Positions 25,195 through 47,678 of a stretch of 64,000 nucleotides of DNA are shown here, piece after piece. The notes under the pieces were generated by a model. That model saw only the letters and a list, made by a program, of their open reading frames with translations. It did not search any database and was not told the origin of the DNA. The translations under genes were made by a program, and so were the position numbers. Source of the stretch: Jiangella muralis (GTDB taxonomy: Bacteria; Actinomycetota; Actinomycetes; Jiangellales; Jiangellaceae); the NCBI RefSeq assembly GCF_001270745.1, contig NZ_KQ434755.1:228542-292541 (forward strand), in the 5' to 3' direction. Numbering within the stretch: position 1 is the first letter of the stretch; each line of letters opens with the position of its first letter.

Positions 25195-26226
25195 ATGACC
25201 CAGCAAGCCACGCCCGACCGGACGCTTCCGTTGCCGGGCGACACCCTGGTCGGCCTCTACCGCACGATGGCCCTGATCAGAGCGTTCGAAGAGCGCGTGC
25301 ACGAGCTGTTCACCGAGGGCGAGCTGCCCGGTTTCCTGCACCTGTGCTCCGGCCAGGAGGCGGTCGCCGCCGGTGTGATCGCGCAGCTGGAGCGCGCGGA
25401 CATGATCACCTCGACGCACCGCAACCACGGGCACGCGCTGGCCAAGGGCGTCGACCCGCGGGCCATGATGATCGAGCTGTACGGGCGCGCCGGCGGCTCC
25501 AACTCGGGCAAGGGCGGCTCGATGCACCTCGCCGACCCGGCCGTCGGCCACCTGGCCAGCGGCGGCATCGTCGGGGCCAGCGCGCCGCTCGCGCTCGGCC
25601 CGGCGCAGGCGGCCAAGCTGGCCGGCACCGGCGCGGTCGCGGTCGCGTTCTTCGGCGACGGCGGGGCGCAGCAGGGCACGGTGCTGGAGGCGATGAACCT
25701 CGCCGCCGTGTGGAAGCTGCCGGTCGTGTTCGTCTGCGAGAACAACCTGTTCGGCCAGGCGACCACCGTCGACTACGCCTCCGCGGCCGCGCCGTACGCG
25801 CGGGCCGAGGGGTTCGGCCTGCCGGCCGAGCGGGTCGACGGGCAGGACGTGGTGGCCGTGTACGAGGCGGCCGGCCGCGCCGTCGAGCGGGCCCGCGCCG
25901 GCGACGGCCCGTCCTACCTGGAGTGCCTGACCTACAGCTACCACGGCGCCTGGGAGGGCGAACCGAAGCGGTCCTACCGCCGGCCCGAGGTGGAGTCCGA
26001 CTTCCGCCGCCGCGACCCGCTCCGCCTGCTCGACGACGTCCTGACCGCGGCGCTGCCGGACTGGCTGGACATCAAGGACCGAGTGGACGACGAGGCCGCC
26101 GAGCAGGTGGACGGCGCCGTCGAGGCCGGCCGCGCCGCGCCCTACCCCGACCCGTCGACGGTGCTCACCGGCGTGTACGCCGACCCGAACGTCGTCATCG
26201 ACCGCGACGGCCTGGCCGTCCGCTGA
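25195..26226 (+). CDS. ThDP-dependent dehydrogenase E1 alpha subunit (AcoA/PdhA-like)
   Basis: A 343-residue protein of normal E1-alpha length. The ThDP and magnesium motif reads FFGDGGAQQGTVLEAMNLAA (about 154-173) followed by CENNLFGQ (about 182). The phosphorylation-loop-type region TSTHRNHGHALAKG (about 72-85) and GGSMHLAD are present. It pairs with the E1 beta gene 22 bp downstream. E1 enzymes decarboxylate 2-oxo acids or cleave acyloins. No E2 or E3 gene lies anywhere in the window, so the acyl or aldehyde product is either passed to components encoded elsewhere or handled differently. An SDR gene follows directly. Confidence 0.92.
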   Translation: MTQQATPDRTLPLPGDTLVGLYRTMALIRAFEERVHELFTEGELPGFLHLCSGQEAVAAGVIAQLERADMITSTHRNHGHALAKGVDPRAMMIELYGRAGGSNSGKGGSMHLADPAVGHLASGGIVGASAPLALGPAQAAKLAGTGAVAVAFFGDGGAQQGTVLEAMNLAAVWKLPVVFVCENNLFGQATTVDYASAAAPYARAEGFGLPAERVDGQDVVAVYEAAGRAVERARAGDGPSYLECLTYSYHGAWEGEPKRSYRRPEVESDFRRRDPLRLLDDVLTAALPDWLDIKDRVDDEAAEQVDGAVEAGRAAPYPDPSTVLTGVYADPNVVIDRDGLAVR

Positions 26227-26248
26227 TCATCAGCAGAGAGGACCGAGC

Positions 26249-27277
26249 ATGAAGACCCTGTCGTTCGCCGACGCGATCAACGAGGCGCTGCGGCTGGAGA
26301 TGACCCGTGACCCGCGGGTCTTGGTGACCGGCGAGGACGTGTCCGGTGGCGCCACCATCCCGGGGTTCGAGCGGGCCGACGCGTGGGGCGGCGTCTTCGG
26401 CGTCACCCGCGGGCTGGTCGCCGAGTTCGGCCGGGACCGCGTCATCGACACGCCGATCTCCGAGTCCGCGTTCATCGGCGCGGCCATCGGGGCAGCCGCC
26501 GCCGGCTACCGCACCGTGACCGAGCTGCAGTTCCTCGACTTCATGGGCGTCTGCCTGGACCAGATCATCAACCAGGCGGCGAAGCTGCGCTACGCCCGCG
26601 GCGACCGCGCGCCGGGCGTCCCGATCGTCATCCGCGCGATGATCGGCGCCGGGTCGCGCGCCGGCAGCACGCAGTCGCAGAGCCACTACTCGTCGGTCGC
26701 GCACTTCCCGGGGCTCAAGGTCGTCGTGCCGGCCACGCCGGCCGATGCCAAGGGCCTGATGATCGCGGCCATCCGCGACGAGGACCCGGTGCTGTTCCTG
26801 GAGAACAAGGCGCTCTACGAGACCAAGGGACCGGTGCCGGACGGCGACGAGCCGGTGCCGATCGGCCGGGCCCGGGTCGCCCGCGAGGGCGGCGACGTCA
26901 CGATCGTGACGATCGCGCGGATGCTCTCGGTGGCCGAGAAGGCCGCCAAGGAGCTGTCCGAGCGGGGCATCGAGGCGGAGATCATCGACGTGCGCACGGT
27001 GGCGCCGCTGGACCTCACGACGATCCTGGAGTCCGTCGAGCGCACCGGCCGGCTCGTCGTCGTCGACGAGGACACCCCGCGCTGCTCGGTGGCCTCCGAC
27101 ATCGTCGCGCTGGTCAGCAGCCGGGCGTTCGACCGGCTGACCGCCGCGCCGCGGATGGTCACCCCGCCGCACACGCCGGTGCCGTTCGCGCCGGTGCTGG
27201 AGGACGCGTACATCCCGAGTCCGGAACAGGTGGTCGAAGCGGTGCTGGCGACGGCCGGTCAGGAGGTGGCGGCATGA
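26249..27277 (+). CDS. ThDP-dependent dehydrogenase E1 beta subunit (AcoB/PdhB-like)
   Basis: A 342-residue partner of the preceding E1 alpha. The N-terminal PYR-type domain has GEDVSGGATIPGF, DTPISESAFIGAAIG with the conserved ThDP-activating glutamate, and TELQFLDFMG. The C-terminal transketolase domain has DVRTVAPLD and VVDEDTPRCS. Heterotetramer formation with E1 alpha is expected. The stop overlaps the start of the SDR gene (ATGA), so the three are translated as a unit. Confidence 0.92.
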   Translation: MKTLSFADAINEALRLEMTRDPRVLVTGEDVSGGATIPGFERADAWGGVFGVTRGLVAEFGRDRVIDTPISESAFIGAAIGAAAAGYRTVTELQFLDFMGVCLDQIINQAAKLRYARGDRAPGVPIVIRAMIGAGSRAGSTQSQSHYSSVAHFPGLKVVVPATPADAKGLMIAAIRDEDPVLFLENKALYETKGPVPDGDEPVPIGRARVAREGGDVTIVTIARMLSVAEKAAKELSERGIEAEIIDVRTVAPLDLTTILESVERTGRLVVVDEDTPRCSVASDIVALVSSRAFDRLTAAPRMVTPPHTPVPFAPVLEDAYIPSPEQVVEAVLATAGQEVAA

Positions 27278-28155
27278 GCGCCGAACAGGGCTTCGAGACC
27301 GGCCGCCACGCCGGCAAGGTGGCTCTGATCAGCGGCGGAGCCCGCGGTCAGGGCCGCGAGATCGCCGTCCGGCTGGCCCGCGAGGGCGCCGACATCGCCA
27401 TGTTCGACCTGTGCGAGCAGCCGGCGACGTCGCAGTACCCGGGCGCGACCACGGAGGACCTGGCCGAGACCGTCCGGCTGGTCGAGGAGACCGGCCAGAA
27501 GGTGCTGTCGGCCGTCGTGGACGCCCGCGACCACGCCGCCGTCGACGCGTTCGTCGACGACACCATCGCGTGGGCCGGGAAGATCGACCTCGTCTGCGCC
27601 AACGCCGGCCTGGTGACCTGGGTGCCGTTCCTCGACCTCAGCCCGCAGCAGTGGGCCGACGTCATGGACATCAACGTCACCGGCGTGTTCAACACCGTCC
27701 AGCCGGTCCTGCGGCACATGGTCGCCCGGCAGCAGGGCAGCGTCGTGCTCACCTCGTCGGTCAACGGCGTGGAGCCCGGCGAGAGCATCGCCCACTACAC
27801 CGCGTCCAAGCACGCGGTGCTCGGGCTGACGAAGAACCTCGCCCTCGAGTTCGGCCCGGCCAACATCCGGGTGAACGCGGTCATGCCCAGCGCGGTCAAC
27901 ACCGTCATGGGCAACAACAGCACGAACCTGAAGTGGATCTTCGGCCGCGACGACGCGACGGAGGACGACTACCTGGCCGCGACGCGGCAGTGGCACATCC
28001 TCCGCAACCGGCCCGCGCTGCACCCGTCCGCGGTCGCCGACGTCGTGTCCTGGCTGTGCGGCCACGACGCCCGCTTCATCACCGGGACGGCGGTCCCCGT
28101 CGACGCCGGCCACCTCGTCCTCCCCGGCTTCAACCACAAGCCTCTGTTCGACTGA
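27274..28155 (+). CDS. Mycofactocin-coupled SDR family oxidoreductase (SDR-1)
   Basis: A 293-residue classical SDR: nucleotide motif ISGGARGQG (about 19-27), NAG, catalytic Ser in TSSVNG and YTASK. After the second strand it has the longer loop seen in mycofactocin-dependent SDRs (DLCEQPATSQYPGATTEDLA...), which is thought to trap the nicotinamide cofactor so that mycofactocin must re-oxidise it. The C-terminus (KWIFGRDDAT, VDAGHLVLPGFNH) closely matches SDR-3 at 45994-46875, which also follows an E1 beta gene. Oxidation of a secondary alcohol to a ketone is likely. Mycofactocin biosynthesis genes are not in the window. Confidence 0.9.
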   Translation: MSAEQGFETGRHAGKVALISGGARGQGREIAVRLAREGADIAMFDLCEQPATSQYPGATTEDLAETVRLVEETGQKVLSAVVDARDHAAVDAFVDDTIAWAGKIDLVCANAGLVTWVPFLDLSPQQWADVMDINVTGVFNTVQPVLRHMVARQQGSVVLTSSVNGVEPGESIAHYTASKHAVLGLTKNLALEFGPANIRVNAVMPSAVNTVMGNNSTNLKWIFGRDDATEDDYLAATRQWHILRNRPALHPSAVADVVSWLCGHDARFITGTAVPVDAGHLVLPGFNHKPLFD

Positions 28156-28180
28156 GGCCCAACTGTTTGGAGGTGGTCCC

Positions 28181-29860
28181 GTGATCGACAACGGGATGGT
28201 CTCGCGACGCAGTCTGCTCAAACTCGGCGGCATCGCCGTGACGTTGCCGCTACTCGGCACCGTGGCGTGCAGCCGCACACCGGCGCCGTCCGGCGAGCCG
28301 TCGGCCGGCGGTGACGGCGCCCAGCTCACCATCGCCGTCAGCGCCCTGATGGCCTCGCTGGACCGGGAGTACGAGATCGGCGCGGCGTCGATGGAGGCGA
28401 TGAACAACCTCTTCGAGCCGCTGGTCGAGTTCTCCCGCCGGCCGTTCGGCGACAGCGGCTCCCCCCGGCAGCACTTCGACTCCAGCACCTGGGAACTGCG
28501 GCTGCTGGCCGAGGAGCCCGCCGTGTCCGACGACGGGCTCACCTGGACGCTGGTCTTCCGCGACGACGTCAGCAGCCACTCCGGCAACCCGCTGACGGCG
28601 GAGGACTTCGCGTACGCGATCGAGCGGCACCAGCAGGTCTGGGTGCTCGGCTCGTTCTACAACTTCGTCGCCGGGCTACTGCCGCGCGAGCGGATCAGCT
28701 GGAACGTCGTCGACGCGCAGACCCTCGAGGTCACCACCGAGCAGCCGAGTCCGTTGTTCAAGATCCTGCTGCAGAACAACTTCGCGTTCGGCCTGTTCGA
28801 CGCCGTCGCCTCGCGGGCGGCGGGCACCGACGCCGACCCGTGGGCCACGGAGTGGATGAAGGCCAACGGCTCCGAGGCCGGCCACGGCCCGTACACGATC
28901 AGCAGCCACCAGCCGGGCCAGCAGACGGTGTTCACCGCGTTCGACGGCTACCACGGCGGCGCCCCGGCGGTGCAGACCGTCGTGCACCGTCAGGTCGACT
29001 CGTCCAGCACCCGGGTGGCGCTGCTGAAGTCCGGTGAGGTCGACATCGTCCGCGACCTGCTGCCGACGGAGCTGAAGTCGCTGGAGGGCGCCGACGGCGT
29101 CGTCGTCGACAACTTCGACCAGTCGCTGTTCCTGCTGCTGTTCATGATGATGAACAACTCGGTCGCGCCGTTCGACGACCCGCTCGTGCGGCAGGCCGTC
29201 GCCTACGCGACGCCCTACCAGCAGATCGTCGACGACGTGTACCAGGGCTACGCCTCGCCGTGGAAGGGCGTGATCAGCCGCGACTACCCGTACTTCGACC
29301 CGGACGCCTGGATCTACGGCGACGGAGCGAACCCGGACAAGGCGCGCGAGCTGCTGGCGCAGGCCGGCTACGCCGACGGGTTCAGCTGCGAGCTGTTGTG
29401 CAACTCCAGCGAGCCGGTGTCGGAGCAGGTCGCGATCCTGGTCCAGTCGTCGCTGAGCGAGATCGGGATCGACTTCCGGCTGAACAAGCTGTCCGCCGCG
29501 GCCTTCACCGAGCGGCTCACCGGCAAGCAGTACGAGGGCGCCGCGATCTGGCAGGACCTCGCCCTCACCCCGGACATCGGCTACAACTGCTTCCTCTACT
29601 ACCGGTCGACGGCGTTCGCCAACGTCGCCGGGTACGCGTCGGACTCCACCGACCAGCTCATCGACGTGCTGCTCACGACGATGGACGGGCCGGAGCGGGA
29701 GGCCGTTGCCAAGGAGTTCCAGCGCCAGATCGTGGCGGACTCGCCGGCGGTCTTCCTGGCCCAGCCGCACTACGTCGTGGCCCGCCGCGACCACGTCAAG
29801 GGCGTCACGGCCTACCCGTCGCGCACGATCCGGTTCGACGAGATCGAGCTGGCGCGATGA
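28181..29860 (+). CDS. Oligopeptide/nickel-type (family 5) ABC substrate-binding lipoprotein
   Basis: A 559-residue binding protein starting at GTG 28181 (GGAGG upstream). The N-terminus combines a twin-arginine-like motif (SRRSLLKLGG) with a lipobox ending in Cys (LLGTVAC, about 27), so it may be a Tat-exported lipoprotein. Family-5 features include LFEPLVEF, GLTWTLVFRDDVSSHSGNPLTAEDF (about 120-145), GPYTI and FDDPLVRQAVAYA. DppA/OppA relatives bind peptides, but many actinobacterial members bind other small molecules. Its two permeases and two ATPases follow. Confidence 0.92.
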   Translation: MIDNGMVSRRSLLKLGGIAVTLPLLGTVACSRTPAPSGEPSAGGDGAQLTIAVSALMASLDREYEIGAASMEAMNNLFEPLVEFSRRPFGDSGSPRQHFDSSTWELRLLAEEPAVSDDGLTWTLVFRDDVSSHSGNPLTAEDFAYAIERHQQVWVLGSFYNFVAGLLPRERISWNVVDAQTLEVTTEQPSPLFKILLQNNFAFGLFDAVASRAAGTDADPWATEWMKANGSEAGHGPYTISSHQPGQQTVFTAFDGYHGGAPAVQTVVHRQVDSSSTRVALLKSGEVDIVRDLLPTELKSLEGADGVVVDNFDQSLFLLLFMMMNNSVAPFDDPLVRQAVAYATPYQQIVDDVYQGYASPWKGVISRDYPYFDPDAWIYGDGANPDKARELLAQAGYADGFSCELLCNSSEPVSEQVAILVQSSLSEIGIDFRLNKLSAAAFTERLTGKQYEGAAIWQDLALTPDIGYNCFLYYRSTAFANVAGYASDSTDQLIDVLLTTMDGPEREAVAKEFQRQIVADSPAVFLAQPHYVVARRDHVKGVTAYPSRTIRFDEIELAR

Positions 29861-29870
29861 ACGCGGCGCC

Positions 29871-30899
29871 ATGAGCAGGCTGATCGGCCGGCGCCTGGCG
29901 CTGCTCGTCCCGCAGCTGTTGCTGATCTGCTTCGTCAGCTTCCTGCTGATCCAGCTGACCCCGGGCAGCCAGGCCCGGGCTCAGCTGGGCAGCAGCGCGT
30001 CGGACGAGGCGGTGGCGGCGCTGGAGGACGAGCTGGGGTTGAACGACCCGTGGCCGGCGCAGTTCGTCCGCTATCTCGGCGGGCTGCTGCGCGGCGACCT
30101 CGGCACCTCGTGGACGACCGGCCAGCCGGTGCTCGACGACATCGCCCGCCGGGCCCCGGCCACGCTGGAGCTGATCACCGTGTCGTTCGCGGTGATCATC
30201 GTGCTGGCGCTGCTGCTGGGGCTGGCCGGCGGGTTCGCCCGGAACCTGCTGGGCCGGATCGGCGACAAGATCAGCTACGTCTACTCGCTGATGGCGGGCG
30301 CGGTGCCGGACTTCTGGTTCGCCATGATCATGGTGTTCGTCTTCTACTACACGTTCCCGATCGCGGTCGCGCCGGTCGGCCAGTACGACGAGGCGTTCGG
30401 CACGCCGGCGGTGATCACCGGGTCGGTGCTGATCGACACCATCGTCACCGGCGACGTCCCGGTGCTGGTGAGCCACCTCGACCACCTGATCCTGCCGGTC
30501 CTCGCACTCGTCTTCATCAACACCGCGCCGATCCTGCGGATGGTCCGCAGCAGCGTCGGCGAGGCGCTGACGTCGGGCTACATCACCCTCGCCCGGGCGA
30601 ACGGGCTGCCGCAGCGGCGCATCGTGGGGTACGCGCTGCGCAGCGCGCTGCCGCCGATCGTCACGCTGGCCGGCGTCTGGTACACGATGCTGATCGCCGG
30701 CGCGGTGCTCACCGAGACCATCTTCAGCTGGGGTGGCGTCGGCCAGTACGCCGTCCAGGCGGTGCAGAGCGCCGACTGGGCCGCGCTGCAGGGCGTCGTC
30801 CTGCTGGCCGCCCTGCTCTCGCTGCTCGTCTACCTGGCGATCGACCTGGTGCACGCCTGGATCGACCCGCGGGTCCGCGCCTCCGGAGGGACCCGATGA
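29871..30899 (+). CDS. DppB-like ABC permease
   Basis: A 342-residue membrane protein starting at ATG 29871, 10 bp after the binding protein. It begins with a typical DppB segment (RRLALLVPQLLLICFVSFLLI) and PGSQA motif. It has about six transmembrane helices and an EAA-type loop TLARANGLPQRRIVGYALRSALPP (about 238-262). The last four bases overlap the next permease. Confidence 0.93.
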   Translation: MSRLIGRRLALLVPQLLLICFVSFLLIQLTPGSQARAQLGSSASDEAVAALEDELGLNDPWPAQFVRYLGGLLRGDLGTSWTTGQPVLDDIARRAPATLELITVSFAVIIVLALLLGLAGGFARNLLGRIGDKISYVYSLMAGAVPDFWFAMIMVFVFYYTFPIAVAPVGQYDEAFGTPAVITGSVLIDTIVTGDVPVLVSHLDHLILPVLALVFINTAPILRMVRSSVGEALTSGYITLARANGLPQRRIVGYALRSALPPIVTLAGVWYTMLIAGAVLTETIFSWGGVGQYAVQAVQSADWAALQGVVLLAALLSLLVYLAIDLVHAWIDPRVRASGGTR

Positions 30900-31741
30900 C
30901 CACCGTCGCGCCCACGTCCACGCCGACGCGGCGGCGCAACCCGCAGCTGCTGATCGGGCTGACCGCCGTCGCGGTGATCCTGCTGGTGGCGCTGCTCGCG
31001 CCGCTGCTGGCCACGCACGATCCGGTGCGGGTGTCCGGTGCCGTGCTGCAGCCGCCGTCGGGCGAGCACTGGCTCGGCACCGACCGGTCCGGCCTCGACA
31101 TCTTCTCCCGGGTCGTCTACGCGCCCCGCGTCGACCTGCTGCTGGCCGGCGTCGGCACGCTGCTGGCCGCGCTGCTGGGCGTCCCGCTGGGCGCGCTGGC
31201 CGGGTACGCGCCGGGCATCGTCGGCGAGGCGATCAGCCGGACGCTCGACGTCGTGCAGGCGTTCCCGTTCTTCATCCTCGCGATGTGCCTGCTCGGGATC
31301 GTGGGCGGCTCGCTGCCGAACATCATCGCGGTGCTGGCGATCGTCAACGCCCCGATCTACGCCCGGCTCATGCACAGCCAGACCCGCACGCTGCGCGGCC
31401 GGATGTTCATCGACGCCGCCCGCGTCTCCGGCTGCCGGCCGCGGCAGGTGATCCTCGGCCACATCGTCCCGAACTCGCTGAGCCCGATCCTCGCGCAGAT
31501 GTCGGTGACGCTCGGCATGTCGATCATCCTGGTCGCCGGCGTCAGCTTCGTCGGCGCCGGGGTCGAGCCGCCGACCGCCGAGTGGGGCGTGATGATCGGC
31601 GACGGCTCCGGCGGCATGTTCACCGGGCAGTGGTGGCCGGTGGTCTTCCCCGGCATCGCGCTGGCGCTGACGGTCGTCGCGTTCGCGCTCGTCTCCAACG
31701 GCATCACCGTCGCCAACCAGCAGAGGAGCCGTCGTGCCTGA
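30896..31741 (+). CDS. DppC-like ABC permease
   Basis: A 281-residue membrane protein (ATGA overlap with the preceding stop). DppC features are HWLGTDRSGLDIFSRVVYAPR (about 58-78) and the EAA loop DAARVSGCRPRQVILGHIVPN (about 173-193). It forms the channel with the DppB-like protein. It overlaps the ATPase gene by 8 bp. Confidence 0.93.
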   Translation: MTTVAPTSTPTRRRNPQLLIGLTAVAVILLVALLAPLLATHDPVRVSGAVLQPPSGEHWLGTDRSGLDIFSRVVYAPRVDLLLAGVGTLLAALLGVPLGALAGYAPGIVGEAISRTLDVVQAFPFFILAMCLLGIVGGSLPNIIAVLAIVNAPIYARLMHSQTRTLRGRMFIDAARVSGCRPRQVILGHIVPNSLSPILAQMSVTLGMSIILVAGVSFVGAGVEPPTAEWGVMIGDGSGGMFTGQWWPVVFPGIALALTVVAFALVSNGITVANQQRSRRA

Positions 31742-32522
31742 CACCCCTGTGCTCGACGTCGCCGGCCTGGAGGTCGGCAACGACGCGGACCGCCCGTTCA
31801 CCCTCGGGCCGCTGGACCTCGCGCTGGCGGCGCGGGAGATCGTCGGCGTCGTCGGCGACTCCGGCGCCGGCAAGTCGCTGTTCGTCTCGACCCTCACCCA
31901 GACGCTGCGCCCATCGGCCACCGTCGTGAGCGGTCAGGTGCGGTTCGAGGACGTCGACCTGCTGACGCTGGACCACCGCCGGCAGCAGCGCATCCGCGGC
32001 GCCCGGATCGGGTTCATCGGCTCGAACCCGCACGGGCTGCTGCACCCGATGCTGCCGGTCGGCCGGCAGGTGGCGAACGTGCTGCGGGCGCACGAGCCGG
32101 TCTCCAAGGCCGAGGCACGGGCCCGGGTGCTGGACATGTTCAGCGCGGTCGGCATCCCCGACCCGGCCCGCCGGCTGGACGCGTACCCGCACGAGCTCAG
32201 CGGCGGGATGGCGCAGCGCGTCGTCATCGCGGTCGGGCTGATCTGCGACCCGGACCTGATCGTCGCCGACGAGCCGACCGCCGGCCTGGACGTCACCATC
32301 CAGGCGCAGGTGCTGGAGCTGATCGAGGCGCTGGTGCGGTCGCGGGACAACCGGGCGCTGCTGCTGGCCACCCGCGACCTCGGCATCGTCGCGCGGTTCT
32401 GCGACCGCGTCGTCGTGCTGGACGACGGCCAGGTGGCCGAGCAGGGGCCGGTGCGCGACCTGTTCCGTACGCCGGAGGCCGCGATCAGCCGCGAGCTGCT
32501 CACCGCGGCGCGGGGATTCTAG
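31734..32522 (+). CDS. DppD-like ABC ATPase
   Basis: A 262-residue ATPase starting at GTG 31734. Walker A is GDSGAGKS (about 41-48), signature ELSGGMAQRV (about 146), Walker B LIVADEPTAGLD (about 170). The H-loop position reads LATRDLG where ATHD is usual, so the switch histidine appears replaced by Arg. It is shorter than typical DppD (about 330) and lacks the C-terminal cysteine-rich oligopeptide-ABC extension, which its partner retains. The frame is intact to the stop, so this does not look like a recent truncation. Confidence 0.88.
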   Translation: MPDTPVLDVAGLEVGNDADRPFTLGPLDLALAAREIVGVVGDSGAGKSLFVSTLTQTLRPSATVVSGQVRFEDVDLLTLDHRRQQRIRGARIGFIGSNPHGLLHPMLPVGRQVANVLRAHEPVSKAEARARVLDMFSAVGIPDPARRLDAYPHELSGGMAQRVVIAVGLICDPDLIVADEPTAGLDVTIQAQVLELIEALVRSRDNRALLLATRDLGIVARFCDRVVVLDDGQVAEQGPVRDLFRTPEAAISRELLTAARGF

Positions 32523-32531
32523 GAGGCGGCG

Positions 32532-36214: not shown

Positions 36215-36230
36215 GAGAGGAGCGCCGTCC

Positions 36231-37136: not shown

Positions 37137-37161
37137 CGCGCTCTCGGGGTTGGTGCAAGTT

Positions 37162-37676: not shown

Positions 37677-37820
37677 ACTGCCGGAAGGCGGCGAACGGAC
37701 GGCCGCCGGCGCACGGAAGCAGTTCGGCGCACCGATTGCAGCTCCAGCCAGCCAGCCTCATGACCCGACCACCGCAGGCCTCACCCGCGGAAGCGATGGG
37801 CGCGGCCGGCGGCGGCAGTG

Positions 37821-37896
37821 AGCTACAGTAACGCTTCAATAAAACTGCAACTGATCGCTTTACAACTCCTGATTCGTAGCTACAGTAACGATGTAG
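37821..37896 (+). promoter_or_regulatory. Promoter and repeated operator-like site of the MerR-XRE-cupin gene
   Basis: AGCTACAGTAACG occurs twice (37821-37833 and 37878-37890), 57 bp apart. The second copy lies in CTACA-GTAACGA-TGTAG, a short dyad. TTTACA (37859-37864) and TACAGT (37881-37886), 16 bp apart, make a credible -35/-10 pair. The repeated box therefore overlaps the -10, as expected for autoregulation by the gene that starts at 37916 behind GGAGGAGG. Confidence 0.55.
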
Positions 37897-37915
37897 TTCT
37901 AGTGGAGGAGGCCGC

Positions 37916-38740: not shown

Positions 38741-38741
38741 C

Positions 38742-40039: not shown

Positions 40040-40848
40040 CCGGTGCGACCAACGGCCCCGCCACGACCCCAGCGGTGACGGCCGTCGAGGACGGGCAGCC
40101 GCTGATCGAGGCCGGCGGCGTCGACATGGCCTTCCGGACCGGCCGCGGCCGCCGGGCCGAGGAGCACCGGGTGCTCGAGGACGTCAGCTTCGGCATCGGC
40201 GCCGGCGAGTTCGTGTCCGTCATCGGCCCGTCCGGCGGCGGCAAGACCACCCTGCTCAGCCTGATCGCCGGCCTCGCCACGCCCACCGGCGGCCGGATCG
40301 TCGTCGGCGGCCGGCCGGTCACCGGGCCGGGCGCGGACCGCGGCGTCGTGTTCCAGCAGGACGCGATCCTGCCGTGGCGCACCGTGCGGCGCAACGTCGA
40401 GTACGGCCTCGAGCGGGCCGGCCTGCCGCGCACCGAGCGGGCCGAGCGGGCGGCCGAGTTCATCGAGCTGGTCGGGCTGACGAAGTTCGCCGACTACCTG
40501 CCCAAGCAGCTGTCCGGCGGGATGAAGAAGCGGGTGGCGATCGCCGCCGTGCTGGCCAACGACCCGGCCGTGCTGCTGATGGACGAGCCGTTCGGCGCGC
40601 TCGACTACTCGACCCGCGTGCACCTGCAGGACGAGTTGCTGCGGATCTGGGAGCAGCGCCGCGTCACCACGGTGTTCGTCACGCACGACATCGAGGAGGC
40701 GCTCTACCTCTCCGACCGGATCCTGGTGCTGGCCGGCGGCCGGCTGGCCGAGGACTTCGCCGTCCCGTTCGGCCGCCCGCGCCACCCGGAGCTGCGCATG
40801 GGCGCCCAGATCCAGCAGGCCAGGAGCCATCTCTGGGGCTACCTGTGA
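40036..40848 (+). CDS. NitT/TauT-type ABC ATPase
   Basis: A 270-residue ATPase. Walker A GPSGGGKTT (about 65-73), VVFQQDAILPW, signature QLSGGMKKRVAIA (about 157), Walker B LLMDEPFGALD (about 178), FVTHDIEEALYLSD. The family imports nitrate, sulfonates, thiamine precursors, riboflavin or other small organics. It serves the two permeases at 40845 and 43092. Confidence 0.93.
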   Translation: MTGATNGPATTPAVTAVEDGQPLIEAGGVDMAFRTGRGRRAEEHRVLEDVSFGIGAGEFVSVIGPSGGGKTTLLSLIAGLATPTGGRIVVGGRPVTGPGADRGVVFQQDAILPWRTVRRNVEYGLERAGLPRTERAERAAEFIELVGLTKFADYLPKQLSGGMKKRVAIAAVLANDPAVLLMDEPFGALDYSTRVHLQDELLRIWEQRRVTTVFVTHDIEEALYLSDRILVLAGGRLAEDFAVPFGRPRHPELRMGAQIQQARSHLWGYL

Positions 40849-41681
40849 GACTGCACCGGCTCGCCGTCAGCGCCCTGGGCTGCCTCGCGCTGGTCGCCGC
40901 GTGGGAGGTCGGCGCCTACGTCGTCGGCGGGCGCAGCGCGAACCCGGAGATCGTCTGGCCGCACCTGTCCGACGTGCTCGGCGAGGCGCTGCCCGCGCTG
41001 GCCACCGTCGACACCACCGGCGGCCAGCAGCTGACCGGCGTCGCGGACCCCAGCCTGAGCGGCGCGGCCCGGGTGCTCGGCGAACAGGCCCTGGTCACCA
41101 CGCTGCGGGTGCTCGGCGGGACCGCGCTGGGCCTGATCGCCGGCGTCGCGCTCGGGTTCCTGCTCGCCACGGTGGGCTGGTTCCGGCGCACGTTCTCGCC
41201 GGTGCTGCAGACGCTGCGGCAGGTCCCGCTGTTCGCACTGACCCTGCTCTTCGTCATCTGGTTCGGCGGCACGACCACCGGGATCGTGGTCTTCGTCGCG
41301 TTCGGGACCGGGCTGATGATGATGGTCGCGACGCAGGAGGCCATCGCGTCCGTCCCCGCCGTCCACGTCACCTACGCACGCACCCTCGGCGCCACCCGTG
41401 CCGGCGTGCTGCGCACCGTCGTGGCACCGGCCATCGTCCCGCAGCTGGCGGCGACCACCCTCGTCGTCGTCGGGCTGGCCTGGGCCATGGTCATGGCCGC
41501 CGAGTTCCTCGGCACCCAGCAGGGTCTCGGGCGGCTCATCCTCTTCTTCCAGATGTTCCAGCTGACCGACCGGATGGTCGTGGTCGCGGGCGTCCTGACG
41601 GTGCTCGCGGTCGCCTCCCAGCTGGTCCTGACGCAGGTTCTCGCCCGGCTGACCCGCTGGGTCCCGCGCGAGAACGGCTGA
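40845..41681 (+). CDS. NitT/TauT-type ABC permease 1
   Basis: A 278-residue membrane protein starting at GTG 40845 (GTGA overlap). About six hydrophobic segments and an EAA-type loop VTYARTLGATRAGVLRTVVAPAIVP (about 174-198). A periplasmic stretch of about 50 residues (30-80) follows the first helix. A second, distinct permease of the same class lies beyond the binding-protein gene, so a heterodimeric channel is likely. Confidence 0.9.
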   Translation: MRLHRLAVSALGCLALVAAWEVGAYVVGGRSANPEIVWPHLSDVLGEALPALATVDTTGGQQLTGVADPSLSGAARVLGEQALVTTLRVLGGTALGLIAGVALGFLLATVGWFRRTFSPVLQTLRQVPLFALTLLFVIWFGGTTTGIVVFVAFGTGLMMMVATQEAIASVPAVHVTYARTLGATRAGVLRTVVAPAIVPQLAATTLVVVGLAWAMVMAAEFLGTQQGLGRLILFFQMFQLTDRMVVVAGVLTVLAVASQLVLTQVLARLTRWVPRENG

Positions 41682-41706
41682 CCCTCCGACAGACAGGAGT
41701 TCACCG

Positions 41707-43077
41707 ATGATCTCCAGGCGCACCGCGGCACTGGTCGCGCTCGCCGGGTTGTCGTTCGGCGCGCTGGGCGCGTGCGGCGACGACTCGTCCGGCGACGGCA
41801 CCACCCCCGCTCTGGACGAGAGCCTGACCAACGTCGGCGTCGGCGCGTGGGACGGGGTCCTCGGCGTCGACATCACCGACGCCGACCCCGCCGTCCCCGA
41901 CGTCGAGGTCCGGCTCGCGCAGGCCCCGTTCTGGGACCACAGCACCGAGCAGATCGGCATCGAGCTGGGCTACTTCACCGACGCCGGCATCACCGTGACG
42001 CCGCAGCCGTCCGGGACCATCCTCGGGATGGACCAGATCGCGCCCCAGCTGCTGGCCGGGCAGATCGACGTGGGCACGATGGTCCCGCAGATCTGGACGT
42101 CCTCGCTGGACCAGGGCGTCACCGCGCGGGTGTTCACGTCGCGCGACATCTTCATGGGGCACGCCTTCCTGGCCGCGCCGGGCACCGGTGCACGCTCCGT
42201 CGGCGACTTCATGGATGACGGCATGGGCTGGGACGACGCCGTCGTCGCCGCCCTGGAGCAGCTCGTGGGCCAGACGGTGTACGTCACCGACGAGGCCAGC
42301 CCGCGCTCGTTCCGCGAGGTGGCGCTGGAGGCGGCCGGGCTGACCCCGGACGACTTCGAGTCCAACGTCCTCGACGACACCACCATGCAGCAGCTGGCCA
42401 TCAGCGGCCGGGCCGACTTCGTCGCGCCGGCGTCCGGGCCGAACATCGTCTCGCTGATCGCCGAGGGCTGGATCCCGCTGGTCAGCACCAGCGACATCGT
42501 CGAGCACGGCAACGCCGACCAGCTGCTGACCGTCGTCGTCAACACCGGACTGGCGGCCGAGGTGTCCTGGCTGCGGGCGAACCCGGAGACGGCGCTGCGG
42601 CTGGCGTCGGTCGGCTACCGGATCATCGACCTCAAGAAGACCGACCCGGAGGCGGCGGCGGGCATCCAGATCCCGTTCATCAACAGCATCGCCGGGACGT
42701 CGTTCACGATGGCGGACGCGGAGACGCTGGACCAGCGGATCGACCCGTTCTACTCGTTCGAGGAGCAGACCGAGTTCTTCCAGGACGAGGCGTCGCCGTT
42801 CTACTGGTCCAAGCCGATCGACGCGACGGTCGAGAGCCTGCGCGACGCGGGCCTGCTCACCGGCGAGCACGAGGCGTCCGACGTCTCGTGGGCCGACAGC
42901 ACCTGGCTGACGCTGGACTCGCTGCGCGCGCAGAGCGCCGAGCTGATCGACGAGCTGACGGCATCCGGCCTCACCGGCCAGGCGGCCGAGCAGCTCGCCG
43001 AGGCGGAGGAGTACCTCGCCGCCCGCAACTATCTGGACGCGTTCCGCTTCGCCAACGCCGCGAAGCTCAACGCCTGA
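41707..43077 (+). CDS. NitT/TauT-type ABC substrate-binding lipoprotein, longer than usual
   Basis: A 456-residue lipoprotein with signal peptide and lipobox FGALGAC (Cys about 23). The binding-protein core resembles NMT1/SsuA-type proteins (EQIGIELGYFTDAGITV, LLAGQIDVGTMVPQIW). It is over 100 residues longer than most. The extra part follows about residue 330 (FYSFEEQTEFFQDEASPFYW, then a helical C-terminus). It lies between the two permease genes. Confidence 0.9.
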   Translation: MISRRTAALVALAGLSFGALGACGDDSSGDGTTPALDESLTNVGVGAWDGVLGVDITDADPAVPDVEVRLAQAPFWDHSTEQIGIELGYFTDAGITVTPQPSGTILGMDQIAPQLLAGQIDVGTMVPQIWTSSLDQGVTARVFTSRDIFMGHAFLAAPGTGARSVGDFMDDGMGWDDAVVAALEQLVGQTVYVTDEASPRSFREVALEAAGLTPDDFESNVLDDTTMQQLAISGRADFVAPASGPNIVSLIAEGWIPLVSTSDIVEHGNADQLLTVVVNTGLAAEVSWLRANPETALRLASVGYRIIDLKKTDPEAAAGIQIPFINSIAGTSFTMADAETLDQRIDPFYSFEEQTEFFQDEASPFYWSKPIDATVESLRDAGLLTGEHEASDVSWADSTWLTLDSLRAQSAELIDELTASGLTGQAAEQLAEAEEYLAARNYLDAFRFANAAKLNA

Positions 43078-43091
43078 CCGGGGAGCGCACG

Positions 43092-43883
43092 GTGTCCATC
43101 GTGGTGTCCGTGACGCGGCGGGCCGGCGGCCTGGCCGGTGCGCTGCTGCTGCTCGCGCTGTGGGCGTGGCTGAGCACGAGGACGGTGCCGACGCGGCTGC
43201 CCGGGCCGGACGCCGTCCTGCGGGTGATGGCCGAGAGCCTGACGTCCTCGCCGGTCATCGCGGCGCAGGGCGGCGGCTCGGGCGGGTTCCTCCCGCACAT
43301 CTGGGCGACGCTCTGGCACACCGTGGTCGCGGTGGCCGCCGGCGCGCTGCTGGGCTGCGGGCTGGGCTGGGCGCTGGCCACCGCGCAGGGCGTGCGGTGG
43401 CTGCTGCAGCCGCCGCTGGAGATCCTGCGGCTGGTGCCCAGCCTGGTCGCGGTGCCGTTCTTCGTGCTGTGGTTCGGCATCGGGCCGGTGCCGCAGTTCG
43501 CCCTGATCGTCGGCTACACGGTGCTGGTCATGCAGGTCGCGGCGTACACGGCGGTCCGCGACTTCCCGCCGCACGTCCGCGACTACGCCCGGACCATGGG
43601 CGCGGGCCGGTGGGCCGTCGCGCGCACCGTGCTGCTGCCCGGCGCGCTGCCCGGCCTGCTGGGCTCGCTGCGGGTGACGCTGCAGCTGGCCTGGGGCCTG
43701 GCCGTCGTCGCGGAGCTGCTGGGCGCGCAGGTCGGCGTGGGCCGGGTGATGTCGTCGGCGGCGCGGCTGTTCCGCACCGACTACGTGATGGCGGGACTGG
43801 TCTGGATCTCGGTGATCGCGATGGTCACCGACGCGGTGTTCCGCTGGGCGATCCGCCGCACGACCGCCTGGAGCAGGGACTGA
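43092..43883 (+). CDS. NitT/TauT-type ABC permease 2
   Basis: A 263-residue membrane protein. GTG 43092 is preceded by GGGAG at 7 nt. EAA-type loop RDYARTMGAGRWAVARTVLLPGALP (about 165-189). It differs clearly from permease 1, so it is not a recent duplicate. It is the last transport gene before the E1 alpha gene 38 bp downstream. Confidence 0.9.
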   Translation: MSIVVSVTRRAGGLAGALLLLALWAWLSTRTVPTRLPGPDAVLRVMAESLTSSPVIAAQGGGSGGFLPHIWATLWHTVVAVAAGALLGCGLGWALATAQGVRWLLQPPLEILRLVPSLVAVPFFVLWFGIGPVPQFALIVGYTVLVMQVAAYTAVRDFPPHVRDYARTMGAGRWAVARTVLLPGALPGLLGSLRVTLQLAWGLAVVAELLGAQVGVGRVMSSAARLFRTDYVMAGLVWISVIAMVTDAVFRWAIRRTTAWSRD

Positions 43884-43921
43884 CGTTCGGCGGGGAAGCC
43901 CGCCGAGGAGAAGAGGTAGAG

Positions 43922-44950
43922 GTGACGATCGACGACGACCGGCGCCGTGGCGTCCTGGCGACCATGATCGCCGCGCGCGCGTTCGAGGACGGGCTCGGCG
44001 CCGAGTTCGCGAAACAGCGCGCCCACGCCAAGGGCGCCTTCGGCGGGCGCAACGGCGCCTTCGAGGACCACAGCCTGGAGTTCCGCATCCCCATCCAGGG
44101 CAACATCGAGCTGTCCACCGGGCAGGAGGCGGGGCCGGCCGCGCTGTGCAGCTGGCTCACCGCCGACGACTACGCGGCCGGGACGCACCGGTCGCATTCG
44201 CTGGCCGTCGCCAAGGGCGTGCGGTGGCGGCCGATGCTGGCCGAGATCTACGGCCGCGCGACCGGGCTGTGCGGCGGCCGCGGCGGCGACTTCATGCTCA
44301 ACGATCCGGCGGTGAACTTCGAGAACAGCGCCATCATGGCGCAGCTGACCGCCGTCGCCCTGGGGCACGCGTTCGCGCACCGGCGCGGCGGCACCGGCGG
44401 GGTGGCCGCGGCGGTCATCGGCGACGGCGCCAGCAACCAGGGCGTCGTGCACGAGTCGATGAACCTCGCCGCGCTCTGGCGACTGCCGGTGCTGTTCGTC
44501 ATCGAGGACAACGGCTACGCGATCAGCACGCCGCGGCGCCGGTCCAGCCCGGTCGGCGACCTCAGCGTCCGGGCCGCGGCCTACGACATGCCCGGCGCCT
44601 CGGTCGACGACCGCGACGTCGACGCGGTGATCGAGACGTTCGGCACGGCGGTGGCCCGGGCCCGCGGCGGCGACGGGCCGAGCCTGGTCGTCGTCCGCAC
44701 GCACCGGCTGCGCGGAGCCTTCGAGGGCGACAACCAGTCGTACCGCCCGTCCGGCGAGCTGGACGGCGAGGCCGCGGCGGACAGCCTGCCGGCCTACGCC
44801 GCGCGGCTGCTGGCCGAGGACGTCGTCACCCAGCAGTGGCTGGACGAGACCCGGGCCGCGGCGGACCGCTCCTTCGACGACGCGCTCCGGTTCGCCGAGT
44901 CGTCGCCGTTCCCCGATCCCGAGCACGCGCTGGAAGGACTGTTCGCATGA
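43922..44950 (+). CDS. ThDP-dependent dehydrogenase E1 alpha subunit, second copy
   Basis: A 342-residue E1 alpha. ThDP motif VIGDGASNQGVVHESMNLAA (about 160-179) then IEDNGYAIST (about 194-203), which is closer to true acetoin/pyruvate-type E1 than the first copy's ENNLFGQ. The region around THRSHSLAVAKG (about 88-99) is also conserved. A longer N-terminus carries GGRNGAFEDHSLEFRIPIQG. The start is GTG 43922, after a purine-rich GAGGAGAAGAGG tract. It pairs with the E1 beta gene overlapping by four bases. E2 and E3 are again absent. Confidence 0.9.
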   Translation: MTIDDDRRRGVLATMIAARAFEDGLGAEFAKQRAHAKGAFGGRNGAFEDHSLEFRIPIQGNIELSTGQEAGPAALCSWLTADDYAAGTHRSHSLAVAKGVRWRPMLAEIYGRATGLCGGRGGDFMLNDPAVNFENSAIMAQLTAVALGHAFAHRRGGTGGVAAAVIGDGASNQGVVHESMNLAALWRLPVLFVIEDNGYAISTPRRRSSPVGDLSVRAAAYDMPGASVDDRDVDAVIETFGTAVARARGGDGPSLVVVRTHRLRGAFEGDNQSYRPSGELDGEAAADSLPAYAARLLAEDVVTQQWLDETRAAADRSFDDALRFAESSPFPDPEHALEGLFA

Positions 44951-45969
44951 CCACTACCGTGCCGGCCGGGCGCCAGCTCACCTTCACCGAGGCGATGGTC
45001 GAGGCGCTGGAGTTCGCCTTCGCCGAGGACGACGGTGTCTTCCTGATGGGCGAGGACGTCGGCGTCATGGGCGGGGTGGCGGGCCAGACCCGCGGCCTGC
45101 ACGCCCGCTACGGCGACGATCGCATCCTCGACACCCCGATCTCCGAGGCGGCCTTCTTCGGCCTGGCCGCCGGCGCCGCCCAGCGTGGGCTGCGGCCGGT
45201 GGTCGAGCTGATGCGGGTCGACTTCGCCGGCGTCGTGATGGACCAGATCTACAACTACATCGCCAAGATCGGCTACTGCACCGGCGGCCGGCGCCGGGTC
45301 CCGATGACGATCATGACCCAGGTGGGCAACCCGCTGCGGCAGGGCGCGGTGCACGCGCAGACGCTGTACGGCACCTTCGCGCACATCCCCGGCCTGCGCC
45401 TGGTCGCGCCCGCGACCAGCCACGACGCCAAGGGGCTGCTGCGGGCGGCGATCCGCTGCGACGACCCGGTGGTGTTCTTCTTCCACTCCAGCCTGCTGGC
45501 CATCCCGTACGGCGTGGGGGTGGAGGAGTGGACCGCGCTGCCGGTGGCCGAGGACGACTACGAGATCCCGCTCGGCGTCGCCCGCACCATCCGCCCGGGC
45601 GACGACGTCACCGTCGTGTCGATGTCGCACACCGTGCACGACTGCCTCCGGGCCGCCCGCCGGCTGGCCGCCGACGGCATCTCCTGCGACGTCGTCGACC
45701 TGCGCACCATCGTCCCGCTCGACGTCGACCACATCGTCGCGTCGGTGGCGCGCACCGGCCGGCTGCTCGTCGTCGACGAGGACTACGCGTTCGCCGGGCT
45801 GAGCGCCCAGATCGTCGCGTCCGTCCTGGAGGCGGGCGTGTCGCTGGCCGTGCCGCCGGCGCGGGTCGCCCGGGCGCACGTGCCGATCCCGTACTCGCTG
45901 CCGCTGGACGACGCGGTGCGGCCGGGCGTCGCCCGCATCGAGGCCGCCGCCCGCGCGCTGGTGGCCTGA
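44947..45969 (+). CDS. ThDP-dependent dehydrogenase E1 beta subunit, second copy
   Basis: A 340-residue E1 beta starting at ATG 44947 (ATGA overlap). GEDVGVMGGVAGQTRGL, DTPISEAAFFGLAAG with the conserved glutamate, and VVDLRTIVPLD and VVDEDYAFAG in the C-terminal domain. Same architecture as the protein from 26249-27277 but well diverged, so the two modules are old paralogues or separate acquisitions. A mycofactocin-type SDR follows 24 bp later, as in the first module. Confidence 0.92.
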   Translation: MTTTVPAGRQLTFTEAMVEALEFAFAEDDGVFLMGEDVGVMGGVAGQTRGLHARYGDDRILDTPISEAAFFGLAAGAAQRGLRPVVELMRVDFAGVVMDQIYNYIAKIGYCTGGRRRVPMTIMTQVGNPLRQGAVHAQTLYGTFAHIPGLRLVAPATSHDAKGLLRAAIRCDDPVVFFFHSSLLAIPYGVGVEEWTALPVAEDDYEIPLGVARTIRPGDDVTVVSMSHTVHDCLRAARRLAADGISCDVVDLRTIVPLDVDHIVASVARTGRLLVVDEDYAFAGLSAQIVASVLEAGVSLAVPPARVARAHVPIPYSLPLDDAVRPGVARIEAAARALVA

Positions 45970-45993
45970 CCCCGTCAACCCGAGGAGAGAACG

Positions 45994-46875
45994 ATGAGCC
46001 TGTCCGGCAAGACCTTCCTGATCACCGGGGGAGCCCGCGGCCAGGGCCGCGCGATCGCCCTGAAGGCGGCGTCGCTCGGCGCGCGGGTCGCCGTCGTCGA
46101 CGTCTGCCACGACGTCGACACCGTCCCGTACGCGCTGGGCACGAAGGACGACCTGGCCGAGACGAAGCGGCTGGTGGAGGAGCTCGGCTCGTCCTGCCTG
46201 ACGCTGGCCGGCGACGTCCGCTCGCAGGACGACATGGACCACGCCGTCGCCGCCACCGTCGAGGAGTACGGCGCCGTCGACGTGTTCTGCGCCAGCGCCG
46301 GCGTGCACAGCTTCGTGCCGTTCTGGGAGATGACCGCGGAGCAGTGGCACACCGTGCTGGACATCAACCTCACCGGTGTCTGGCACGGCGCCCGGGCGGT
46401 CGCGCCGCGGATGATCGAGCAGTCCAGCGGCGCGATCATCATCACGTCGTCGGTGATGGGCCACGAGACCGGCAAGGACCTCGCCCACTACGCGGCGTCC
46501 AAGCACGGCGTGCTCGGGCTGATGAAGAGCATCGCCTACGAGCTGGGCCGCTACGGCATCCGCTGCAACGCCGTCCTGCCCAGTGTCGTGCACACCGCGA
46601 TGGGGGAGAACCCGGAGACCCGCAAGTGGATCTTCGGCCGCGACGACGCCACCACGCAGGACTACATCGAGGCGACGAAGCACTGGCACCTGCTGCCGGG
46701 CCGGTCCGGGCTGCCGCCGAGCGCCATCGCCGACGCCATCGTCTGGCTGGCCTCGGACGAGGCCCGCTACATCACCGGTGTCGAGCTGCCGGTGGACGCC
46801 GGGCACCTGCAGCTGCAGGGCTTCAACCACGAGGTCGTCGAGCGCGACGGGGAGCCGGTCGGACCATGGTACTGA
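45994..46875 (+). CDS. Mycofactocin-coupled SDR family oxidoreductase (SDR-3)
   Basis: A 293-residue SDR (ITGGARGQGRAIA, SSVMG, YAASK). The mycofactocin-type loop is clear: DVCHDVDTVPYALGTKDDLA. The region KWIFGRDDAT...DYIEATKHWH and VDAGHLQLQGFNH parallels SDR-1, and both follow an E1 beta gene. This supports a conserved E1alpha-E1beta-SDR cassette. GAGGAGAG ribosome site. Likely oxidises a secondary alcohol or diol. Confidence 0.92.
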   Translation: MSLSGKTFLITGGARGQGRAIALKAASLGARVAVVDVCHDVDTVPYALGTKDDLAETKRLVEELGSSCLTLAGDVRSQDDMDHAVAATVEEYGAVDVFCASAGVHSFVPFWEMTAEQWHTVLDINLTGVWHGARAVAPRMIEQSSGAIIITSSVMGHETGKDLAHYAASKHGVLGLMKSIAYELGRYGIRCNAVLPSVVHTAMGENPETRKWIFGRDDATTQDYIEATKHWHLLPGRSGLPPSAIADAIVWLASDEARYITGVELPVDAGHLQLQGFNHEVVERDGEPVGPWY

Positions 46876-47678
46876 GCACTGACGGCTGGGTCGTGGTGGT
46901 CAGCGGGGCGGCCCGCGGCCAGGGCCTGAGCCACGCGAAGGCATACGCCGCCGACGGCGCGCACGTCGTGCTGCTGGACGTGCCCTCGGGGCTGGCGACC
47001 GTCCCGTACCCGGTGTCGGACCAGGACGACCTGGCCGCCGCGCACGAGGAGGTCGACGCGGCCGGGACGGGCACCGTCCTCAGCTACGCCGCCGACGTCC
47101 GCGACGCCGACCGGGTCGCCGAGGTGCTGGCCGACGTCGCCGATCGCCTCGGCGGCGTCGACGTCGCCGTCGCCAACGCGGGGATCTTCAGCTTCGCCCC
47201 GTCCACCTGGGAGTTGCCGCCCGAGACGTGGAAGGAGTGCAGCGACACGATCCTCTACGGCTCGTGGACGCTGGCCCGCGCGGCGATCCCGCACATGCTC
47301 GGCCGCGCGGGCGCCAACCTCGTCTTCGTCGGGTCGGTGTCGGCGCACAAGGGCATCGCCGCCACCGGCCACTACGTCGCCGCCAAACACGGCGTCGTCG
47401 GGCTGATGAAGACGCTCGCGGTGGAGCTGGCCCCGGAGGGCATCCGGTCGAACATGATCTCGCCGACGGCCGCGCGGACGGTCATGGCCACCAGCCCGGC
47501 GATGGCCGAGTGCGTCCGCTACCAGGAGGATCGCGGCTCGAATATGTCGAACCTGCTGGCGGTCGACCTGATCGAACCGCGCGACGTCACCGACGCCGTG
47601 CTGTGGATCAGCTCCGACCACGCGCGCTACGTCACGGGCGAGGTGATCAAGGTCGACGCCGGCTTCACCGTCCGCTGA
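46866..47678 (+). CDS. Mycofactocin-coupled SDR family oxidoreductase (SDR-4)
   Basis: A 270-residue SDR whose ATG 46866 overlaps the end of SDR-3 by 10 bp. VSGAARGQGLSHA, ANAGIF, Ser in VGSVSAHKG and YVAAK are present. The insertion DVPSGLATVPYPVSDQDDLA is of the mycofactocin-dependent type. It is shorter at the C-terminus than SDR-3 (ends VDAGFTVR). It is the last gene of the operon. Two SDRs in series suggest two consecutive alcohol oxidations or oxidation of both epimers. Confidence 0.9.
   Translation: MVLSTDGWVVVVSGAARGQGLSHAKAYAADGAHVVLLDVPSGLATVPYPVSDQDDLAAAHEEVDAAGTGTVLSYAADVRDADRVAEVLADVADRLGGVDVAVANAGIFSFAPSTWELPPETWKECSDTILYGSWTLARAAIPHMLGRAGANLVFVGSVSAHKGIAATGHYVAAKHGVVGLMKTLAVELAPEGIRSNMISPTAARTVMATSPAMAECVRYQEDRGSNMSNLLAVDLIEPRDVTDAVLWISSDHARYVTGEVIKVDAGFTVR

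Follow-up and report, generated by a model that had tools for sequence, protein, structure and literature searches.

A 64,000-nucleotide stretch of Jiangella muralis DNA (assembly GCF_001270745.1, contig NZ_KQ434755.1, positions 228,542 to 292,541; hereafter the window) carries two operons in which a thiamine diphosphate (ThDP)-type E1alpha-E1beta pair is followed by a short-chain dehydrogenase/reductase (SDR) of the mycofactocin type (25195-28155 and 43922-46875). Both pairs show E1alpha and E1beta homology to 2-oxo acid/acetoin dehydrogenase complexes. No lipoyl, E2 or E3 gene was found in the window, and an active-site loop histidine is replaced by alanine in both E1alpha subunits. The reading we favor, at a probability of about 0.5, is that these ThDP enzymes act independently of E2 and cleave or convert the product of the adjacent SDR. 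An initial annotation, made from the sequence alone, had described the two operons, the type of their SDRs and the lack of E2 and E3, and in these respects it proved correct. The active-site substitutions were absent from it; they were found in the present analysis and form the strongest part of the case.

The substituted residues are Ala252 of E1alpha-1 (codon 25948-25950) and Ala266 of E1alpha-2 (codon 44717-44719). The loop residue is alanine in both modules of all three genomes that carry them, namely J. muralis and two further members of the genus, G004 and G010 (6 of 6 rows), and histidine in 117 of 118 relatives; the single exception, L201, has phenylalanine. These 118 relatives comprise the best-scoring E1alpha places for the two queries, fetched with longer flanks, and three complexes of the own genome; the set is not random, and not every listed place was fetched. 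The column corresponds to H271alpha: the histidine of E1alpha L267, from the own genome, aligns with chain position 271 of 1w85 and shares an alignment column with both module alanines. In module 1, the second subunit is changed as well. E1beta-1 has Gln142 (codon 26672-26674) where 117 of 117 relatives have histidine (L285 lacks an E1beta), and this glutamine aligns with chain position 128 of 1w85_B, that is, with H128beta (positions were counted from printed alignments). The ThDP-activating glutamate of E1beta is conserved in both modules, as it is in 95 of 95 relatives.

Both positions have been studied in the E1 component of pyruvate dehydrogenase (E1p); here and below, published work is cited from excerpts of the papers concerned. 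In Geobacillus E1p, H271alpha has been proposed to help acetyl transfer to the lipoyl domain, and H128beta to donate a proton in the same step (PMC2663715). The I206A variant of E1p shows a several-fold increase in activity with 2,6-dichlorophenolindophenol (DCPIP) and a complex activity of approx. one third, and the effect of H271A in Geobacillus and H407A in E. coli E1p is reported to be qualitatively similar (PMC2663715). The replacement seen in the window is that of the laboratory mutants, the same residue to alanine, but here it is natural, occurs in three species and affects an acetoin-type E1. A degenerate pattern for the alanine loop, T[YH][RS]xxGA[FWLC]EG[DE], gave three matches in contigs of 84,980 species, none of them an E1alpha. 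The pattern is restrictive, in that it fixes the codons, starts with T[YH] and admits no tyrosine after the alanine, and genomes near the source may have been excluded, so the result speaks only weakly for rarity.

Neither profile searches nor tblastn detected a lipoyl domain, an E2 catalytic domain or an E3 in the 64-kb window, to which the E3 search was confined. The controls were positive: the lipoyl search recovered its target in L126 and L274, the E3 search did so in L274, and the E2-domain profile matched other fetched loci. The own genome (7.27 Mb, 76 contigs) contains six E2 matches and 11 lipoyl/biotinyl domains. None of either lies on the window's contig (C6, 381,785 bases), and all 11 domains are found in open frames of at least 348 amino acids, none in a free-standing frame of lipoyl size. 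The initial annotation had named dedicated E2/E3 genes of an orthologous operon, lying just outside the window, as a finding that would count against it; a search for E2 and lipoyl genes found none beside the orthologous modules of G004 and G010, where the lipoyl/biotinyl domain nearest to module 1 is approx. 154 kb and more than 1 Mb away, respectively. It had also treated the missing adjacent E2 as telling in itself. The absence stands, but as a distinguishing trait it was rejected. Of the 118 relatives, 53 have only a lipoyl domain in the fetched flanks and 29 have an E2 catalytic domain there; the remaining 36, with neither, are an upper bound, as some flanks are shortened by contig ends or fetch windows (for example that of the own-genome locus L267, whose E2 match, L003, lies just outside). 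For two of the 82 relatives labeled as having a lipoyl or E2 gene (L182 and L287), the gene behind the label is not one that lies downstream in the same orientation.

The closest relatives of each E1 pair have a lipoyl gene directly after E1beta. Three such partner genes were scanned: near module 1, L121 has a lipoyl domain joined to an alpha/beta hydrolase, which we take to be AcoC-like, and L274 has a full E2; near module 2, L111 has a 77-amino-acid lipoyl protein. The E1alpha tree, with 101 rows, joins module 1 to L121-L123, which carry lipoyl or E2 genes, and module 2 to L111-L119, L124 and L161, which carry lipoyl genes. The E1beta tree places module 1 with a similar set and module 2 with 15 rows, 11 with a lipoyl gene and four without. 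When E1alpha and E1beta are joined, with the two trait columns masked, a single clade for both modules is rejected by the approximately unbiased (AU) test, both in a 47-row alignment (p 9.25e-6) and in one of 49 rows that includes closer relatives (p 2.79e-4); these are 47 of 101 and 49 of 124 rows, picked to cover the main groups, and neither trees nor counts include L162 (contig end, no E1beta). The view of the initial annotation that one module is repeated does not survive as a simple duplication, because the E1 pairs derive from different acetoin-type lineages. A recent duplication of one E1-E1-SDR cassette was likewise rejected: the two pairs are only 40-42% identical and fall in different lipoyl-carrying groups. 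The simplest account would be two losses of the lipoyl partner and two His-to-Ala changes. In the 49-row tree, the module 2 set has a support of 99 once L120, which has no lipoyl gene and keeps the histidine, is added; loss of the lipoyl gene may thus have occurred earlier, in a wider module 2 lineage.

The SDRs adjoining the E1 pairs belong to the family of mycofactocin-coupled enzymes that includes the carveol dehydrogenases. SDR-1, SDR-2 and SDR-3 exceed the curated TIGR03971 cut-off of 300 bits, and SDR-4 does not (269.3). In nine crystal structures of mycobacterial members, NAD lies buried beneath an insertion (PMC5264612), and the NAD-covering stretch can be recognized by eye in all four SDRs of the window. 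Of the eight Protein Data Bank (PDB) entries that match SDR-3 best, five carry the name carveol dehydrogenase. SDR-1 and SDR-3 are 50% identical. The C-terminal stretches said to be particular to them are so in part: among 48 SDR rows picked by similarity, KWIFGRDDAT and GFNH are restricted to SDR-1, SDR-3 and their orthologues, whereas VDAGHL is common to a wider subgroup. Both fall in one starred tree set of nine rows, the ninth being L135 of G295, near which no E1 was found in the 9 kb viewed; the tree does not settle the branching order among SDR-1, SDR-3 and L135.

The own genome has an mft locus in which MftB, MftC, MftD, MftE, two MftF and MftR exceed their cut-offs (a set that did not include MftA, which was made out by eye in G002 alone, next to MftB). 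For premycofactocin, a midpoint potential of -255 mV has been quoted (PMC11778925). The locus (L160, G000:C8:66000-85999) also contains three tandem mycofactocin-type SDRs, and its two mftF genes are of the glycosyltransferase type. Orthologues of E1alpha-1 and E1alpha-2 (94-97% identical) occur in three of 12 sampled genus members, J. muralis included, and all three module-bearing genomes have mftC, compared with seven of the 12. The predicted co-occurrence of the trio with mycofactocin genes is therefore seen but does not stand out from chance (0.16). A limited look at the openly licensed literature, subscription journals not being searched, found no report of a mycofactocin-coupled SDR beside an E1 pair, and no paper in the Creative Commons-licensed PMC literature combines "mycofactocin" with "lipoamide" or "thiamine diphosphate". 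In the available parts of PMC6851703, mycofactocin (expression of the mft locus on pyruvate) and pyruvate dehydrogenase E1 (AceE, in an enzyme list) appear in unrelated passages. The accessible text of Haft 2011 (PMC3023750) contains no word starting with pyruvate dehydrogenase, thiamin, acetoin or lipo, and a lead on ephedrine catabolism yielded nothing relevant.

Outside these genomes, an SDR follows E1beta directly, with no lipoyl gene, in L120 (G171), L201 (G099) and L207 (G303). At L208 an SDR match lies 70 bases after E1alpha, with E1beta upstream (the type of this SDR was not checked). On TIGR03971, the SDR of L201 scores 186 against the cut-off of 300, and for that of L207 the family is not among the best 25 listed; the SDR of L120 matches no NCBIfam family at the threshold used. 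mftC is present in G099 and G171 and absent from G303, so E1-SDR neighbors exist without mycofactocin. The occurrence of the trio in genomes lacking mycofactocin genes, which the initial annotation had named as a refutation, thus applies to a trio with another kind of SDR; the trio with a mycofactocin-type SDR was seen only in genomes with mftC, and only in the three genomes of this one genus. By eye, none of the 34 listed matches to a model of SDR-1 and SDR-3 in 393 genomes of the class lies near an E1alpha match outside these three, a result in which misses are possible, as the large searches scored five candidates per genome (six in some). L201 (G099:C1:225000-234500, 3902-6665) lies beside sugar-phosphate cyclase-like and ATP-grasp-like genes, as read from their sequences, and is possibly a natural-product carboligase. 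L232 (G003) and L120 are E1 pairs with no nearby lipoyl gene, the histidine kept and amidohydrolase-like genes adjoining; L232 also has an IlvB-like ThDP enzyme, and L120 has PucR-like and M20-like genes (read from sequence). E1 pairs accompanied by amide hydrolases may be a wider actinobacterial theme.

We infer all of the chemistry, including the direction of the SDR step, and propose the following mechanism. Each operon would import a small organic compound and pass it to a two-step breakdown core. A mycofactocin-dependent nicotinoprotein SDR would convert a secondary alcohol by oxidation into a ketone, namely an acyloin, a 1,2-dione or a 2-oxo compound; alternatively, it would oxidize or reduce a product. 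The adjacent E1alpha-E1beta enzyme would then cleave the C-C bond beside the carbonyl or decarboxylate the compound. The E1 pairs descend from two different acetoin-dehydrogenase-type lineages, whose members hand an acyl group to a lipoyl protein; both pairs would have lost the lipoyl partner gene, both have alanine in place of the loop histidine, and module 1 also has glutamine in place of His128. The ThDP-enamine would be either protonated, with release of an aldehyde in a lyase-type reaction, or oxidized by a small acceptor, with release of an acid. Lacking nearby partner genes and the loop histidine, the E1 pairs most likely work without E2 and are probably acetoin-type E1 enzymes operating without lipoyl transfer. 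Together with its adjoining mycofactocin-type SDR, each pair may thus represent a lipoyl-free route for breaking C-C bonds, which is plausible because the change seems to have occurred twice independently. The mycofactocin-linked E1 route suggested by the initial annotation is accordingly upheld as far as the mft locus, the type of SDR, the lack of dedicated E2 and E3 genes and the substitutions bear on it, while its chemistry stays conditional.

Several observations weigh against E2-independent action coupled to the mycofactocin-type SDRs. E1beta-2 retains the H128beta residue (His136). Of the 36 relatives whose fetched flanks lack a lipoyl gene, 35 keep the loop histidine; E2 loss alone therefore does not bring histidine loss. 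With E1alpha alone, a single clade for the two modules is not rejected (p 0.135), both modules lie on long branches, and in the 49-row tree module 2 joins 12 lipoyl rows at a support of only 84. The tree path from SDR-3 is about as short to L133_15 of G002 (1.31) as to the SDR-1 orthologue (1.34). Moreover, E1-SDR neighbors without a mycofactocin-type SDR over the cut-off occur elsewhere, and the association with mft genes within the genus is not significant, as noted above.

The lipoyl domain could also be supplied in trans: the E1 pairs would still feed that of another complex, and the SDRs would catalyze separate steps. The six E2 genes and 11 lipoyl/biotinyl domains elsewhere in the genome could provide such help and count against E2-independent action, and trans supply may be common, given that up to 36 of the 118 relatives lack a nearby lipoyl gene and that 35 of these keep the histidine. 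Against this stand the alanine found in both pairs at the residue proposed for acyl transfer, the glutamine at H128beta in module 1, and the location of the 11 domains, all off contig C6 and in large frames. We consider trans supply rather unlikely, though it survives best among the alternatives.

Somewhat weaker is the case for carboligation, in which the E1 pairs would make C-C bonds and the SDR would reduce or oxidize the acyloin formed. E1alpha-beta carboligases are known from natural-product clusters, and the acetoin:DCPIP oxidoreductase (Ao:DCPIP OR) of the acetoin dehydrogenase system ligates (PMC12247030); in addition, L201, the one relative to have lost the histidine, has no lipoyl gene nearby and stands by a classical-type SDR in a biosynthetic-looking cluster. 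The operons of the window, however, have importers, a hydrolase within or near them and GntR- or MerR-type regulators, as in catabolic operons, and no biosynthetic genes were noticed around them, in an inspection that included no search aimed at such genes. Carboligation is thus an improbable function for these pairs.

As an extension of the E2-independent mechanism, the role of lipoamide as acceptor for the ThDP-enamine could have passed to mycofactocin, directly or via the bound NAD of the adjacent SDR. E1 would then oxidatively cleave an acyloin or 2-oxo acid and release an acid, and the electrons would pass through mycofactocin to respiration. The idea arises because both E1 lineages converged on the H271A state, which in laboratory E1p is reported to raise activity with the small acceptor DCPIP and to lower complex activity (PMC2663715), and because 2,6-dichloroindophenol (DCIP) binds a mycofactocin-type SDR of Mycobacterium avium, as seen by nuclear magnetic resonance (PMC5264612). 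We regard this particular acceptor as doubtful.

G004 and G010 are colinear with the window from approx. 18.2 kb to approx. 47.7 kb, with matched proteins 83-99% identical. For 13 genes of this island, the pairwise ratio of nonsynonymous to synonymous substitution rates (omega) against the two species is 0.04-0.41, and the island is under purifying selection. That the E1 pairs are degenerate or non-catalytic, as their long branches and the loss of otherwise nearly invariant histidines might suggest, is very unlikely, as the four E1 genes span the same omega range, are open frames in all three genomes and keep the ThDP-activating glutamate.

Three known systems are instructive for comparison. 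The E1 of acetoin dehydrogenase (AcoA/AcoB; Ao:DCPIP oxidoreductase) is likewise an E1alpha-E1beta pair and alone acts on acyloins and diketones (PMC12247030); the pairs described here differ from it in lacking a lipoyl partner within or close to the operon and in having an adjoining mycofactocin-type SDR, alanine for the loop histidine and, in module 1, glutamine for the E1beta histidine. The alphaKADH2 carboligases (KbDH-alpha/beta, from the aldgamycin and kosinostatin clusters) are ThDP enzymes of the same alpha-keto acid dehydrogenase superfamily that catalyze carboligation in biosynthesis (PMC12247030). They serve in branched-sugar biosynthesis, whereas importers and cyclic-amide hydrolases surround the genes in the window. 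The 2-hydroxyisobutyryl-CoA lyase pathway of Actinomycetospora is actinobacterial and includes a thiamine-dependent C-C lyase, as in the E2-independent cleavage proposed here, and predicted mycofactocin-type alcohol dehydrogenases are among the induced proteins (PMC7176365). Its lyase, however, is a single chain of 590 amino acids, and the dehydrogenases of its cluster are MpdB and MpdC (PMC7176365), in place of the E1 pair and mycofactocin-type SDR seen here.

All genes of the two modules lie on the plus strand. Module 1 (25195-34441) is preceded by a GntR/FCD regulator (24411-25178; Pfam FCD and GntR) that ends 16 bp upstream of E1alpha-1 (25195-26226, 343 amino acids; TIGR03182, 296.5 bits, below the equivalog cut-off). 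E1beta-1 (26249-27277, 342 amino acids; NF006667, 320.4 bits, just short of the cut-off of 321) and SDR-1 (27274-28155; TIGR03971, 315.6 bits) follow. The next five genes encode an Opp/Dpp-type importer of the ATP-binding cassette (ABC) class: a solute-binding protein (28196-29860; Pfam SBP_bac_5, 241.4 bits) and two permeases and two ATPases (29871-33548), of which the first permease is identified by Pfam BPD_transp_1 and the other three genes by position and sequence. SDR-2 (33548-34441; TIGR03971, 339.6 bits) completes the module, in which no gap exceeds 40 bp. A relative of D-hydantoinase and dihydropyrimidinase (34820-36214; TIGR02033, 342.9 against a cut-off of 393.25; PDB 3sfw, E 5e-70) begins 378 bp past SDR-2, and its membership in the operon is uncertain. 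Immediately upstream of the GntR gene is an Lrp/AsnC-type regulator (23426-24346), whose AsnC-type helix-turn-helix (HTH) was matched in two stretches. Downstream, 36231-37136 encodes a 301-amino-acid protein with no Pfam or NCBIfam match, whose first approx. 70 residues weakly resemble the start of glyceraldehyde-3-phosphate dehydrogenase (PDB 8oha, E 0.01). It has the lowest identity of the island genes tested (83-90% in the orthologues; omega 0.30-0.35), and its predicted fold (predicted local distance difference test score, pLDDT, 32.6) was too poor for use. From this gene to the MerR gene of module 2 the spacing is 0.8 kb in the window, approx. 4.5 kb in G010 and 0.1 kb in G004.

Module 2 (38718-47678) is headed by its regulator, which combines a MerR HTH with a cupin (37916-38740; Pfam). 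A hydrolase of the PuuE-allantoinase/polysaccharide deacetylase family (38718-39662; Pfam; PDB 3cl6, E 1.5e-85) and a cupin (39659-40039; Pfam) precede an ABC importer (40036-43883) composed of an ATPase, a permease, an NMT1/THI5-like binding protein and a second permease. The ATPase is assigned from Pfam, the permeases from sequence, and the binding protein from a weak NMT1 match (20.2 bits against a cut-off of 20.5). E1alpha-2 (43922-44950, 342 amino acids from a GTG start; TIGR03182, 224.3 bits, below the equivalog cut-off), E1beta-2 (44947-45969, 340 amino acids; NF006667, 284 bits, below the cut-off of 321), SDR-3 (45994-46875; TIGR03971, 327.8 bits) and the divergent SDR-4 (46866-47678) follow. 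By the gene calls, gaps are at most 80 bp, with 38 bp upstream of E1alpha-2 if it starts at 43922. The initial annotation had given each module its own importer and C-N hydrolase; importers and hydrolases were indeed identified for both, with the reservation that applies to the hydrolase of module 1. The two cyclic-amide hydrolases invite the guess that the substrates are ureide- or imide-like.

A third cluster (12733-21063) encodes an IlvB-like ThDP enzyme (TPP_enzyme N, M and C), a binding protein (SBP_bac_8), permease- and ATPase-like genes, an M20-like peptidase (Pfam just below the cut-off) and a transporter-like protein without a Pfam match, read from its sequence. Its portion from approx. 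18.2 kb is kept in G004 and G010, and 21639-23174 encodes a PucR regulator. Counting the IlvB-like enzyme, approx. 35 kb of the window contain three ThDP enzymes or pairs.

The two natural E1 lineages in which the histidine is replaced offer a test of the role of the loop residue, which was earlier studied by mutation. As both lineages stand beside an SDR of one subgroup and lack the lipoyl partner of their relatives, they also provide a test of E2-free E1 function. If mycofactocin were indeed the acceptor, a second kind of enzyme, ThDP-dependent, would be added for a cofactor so far tied to alcohol and aldehyde dehydrogenases.

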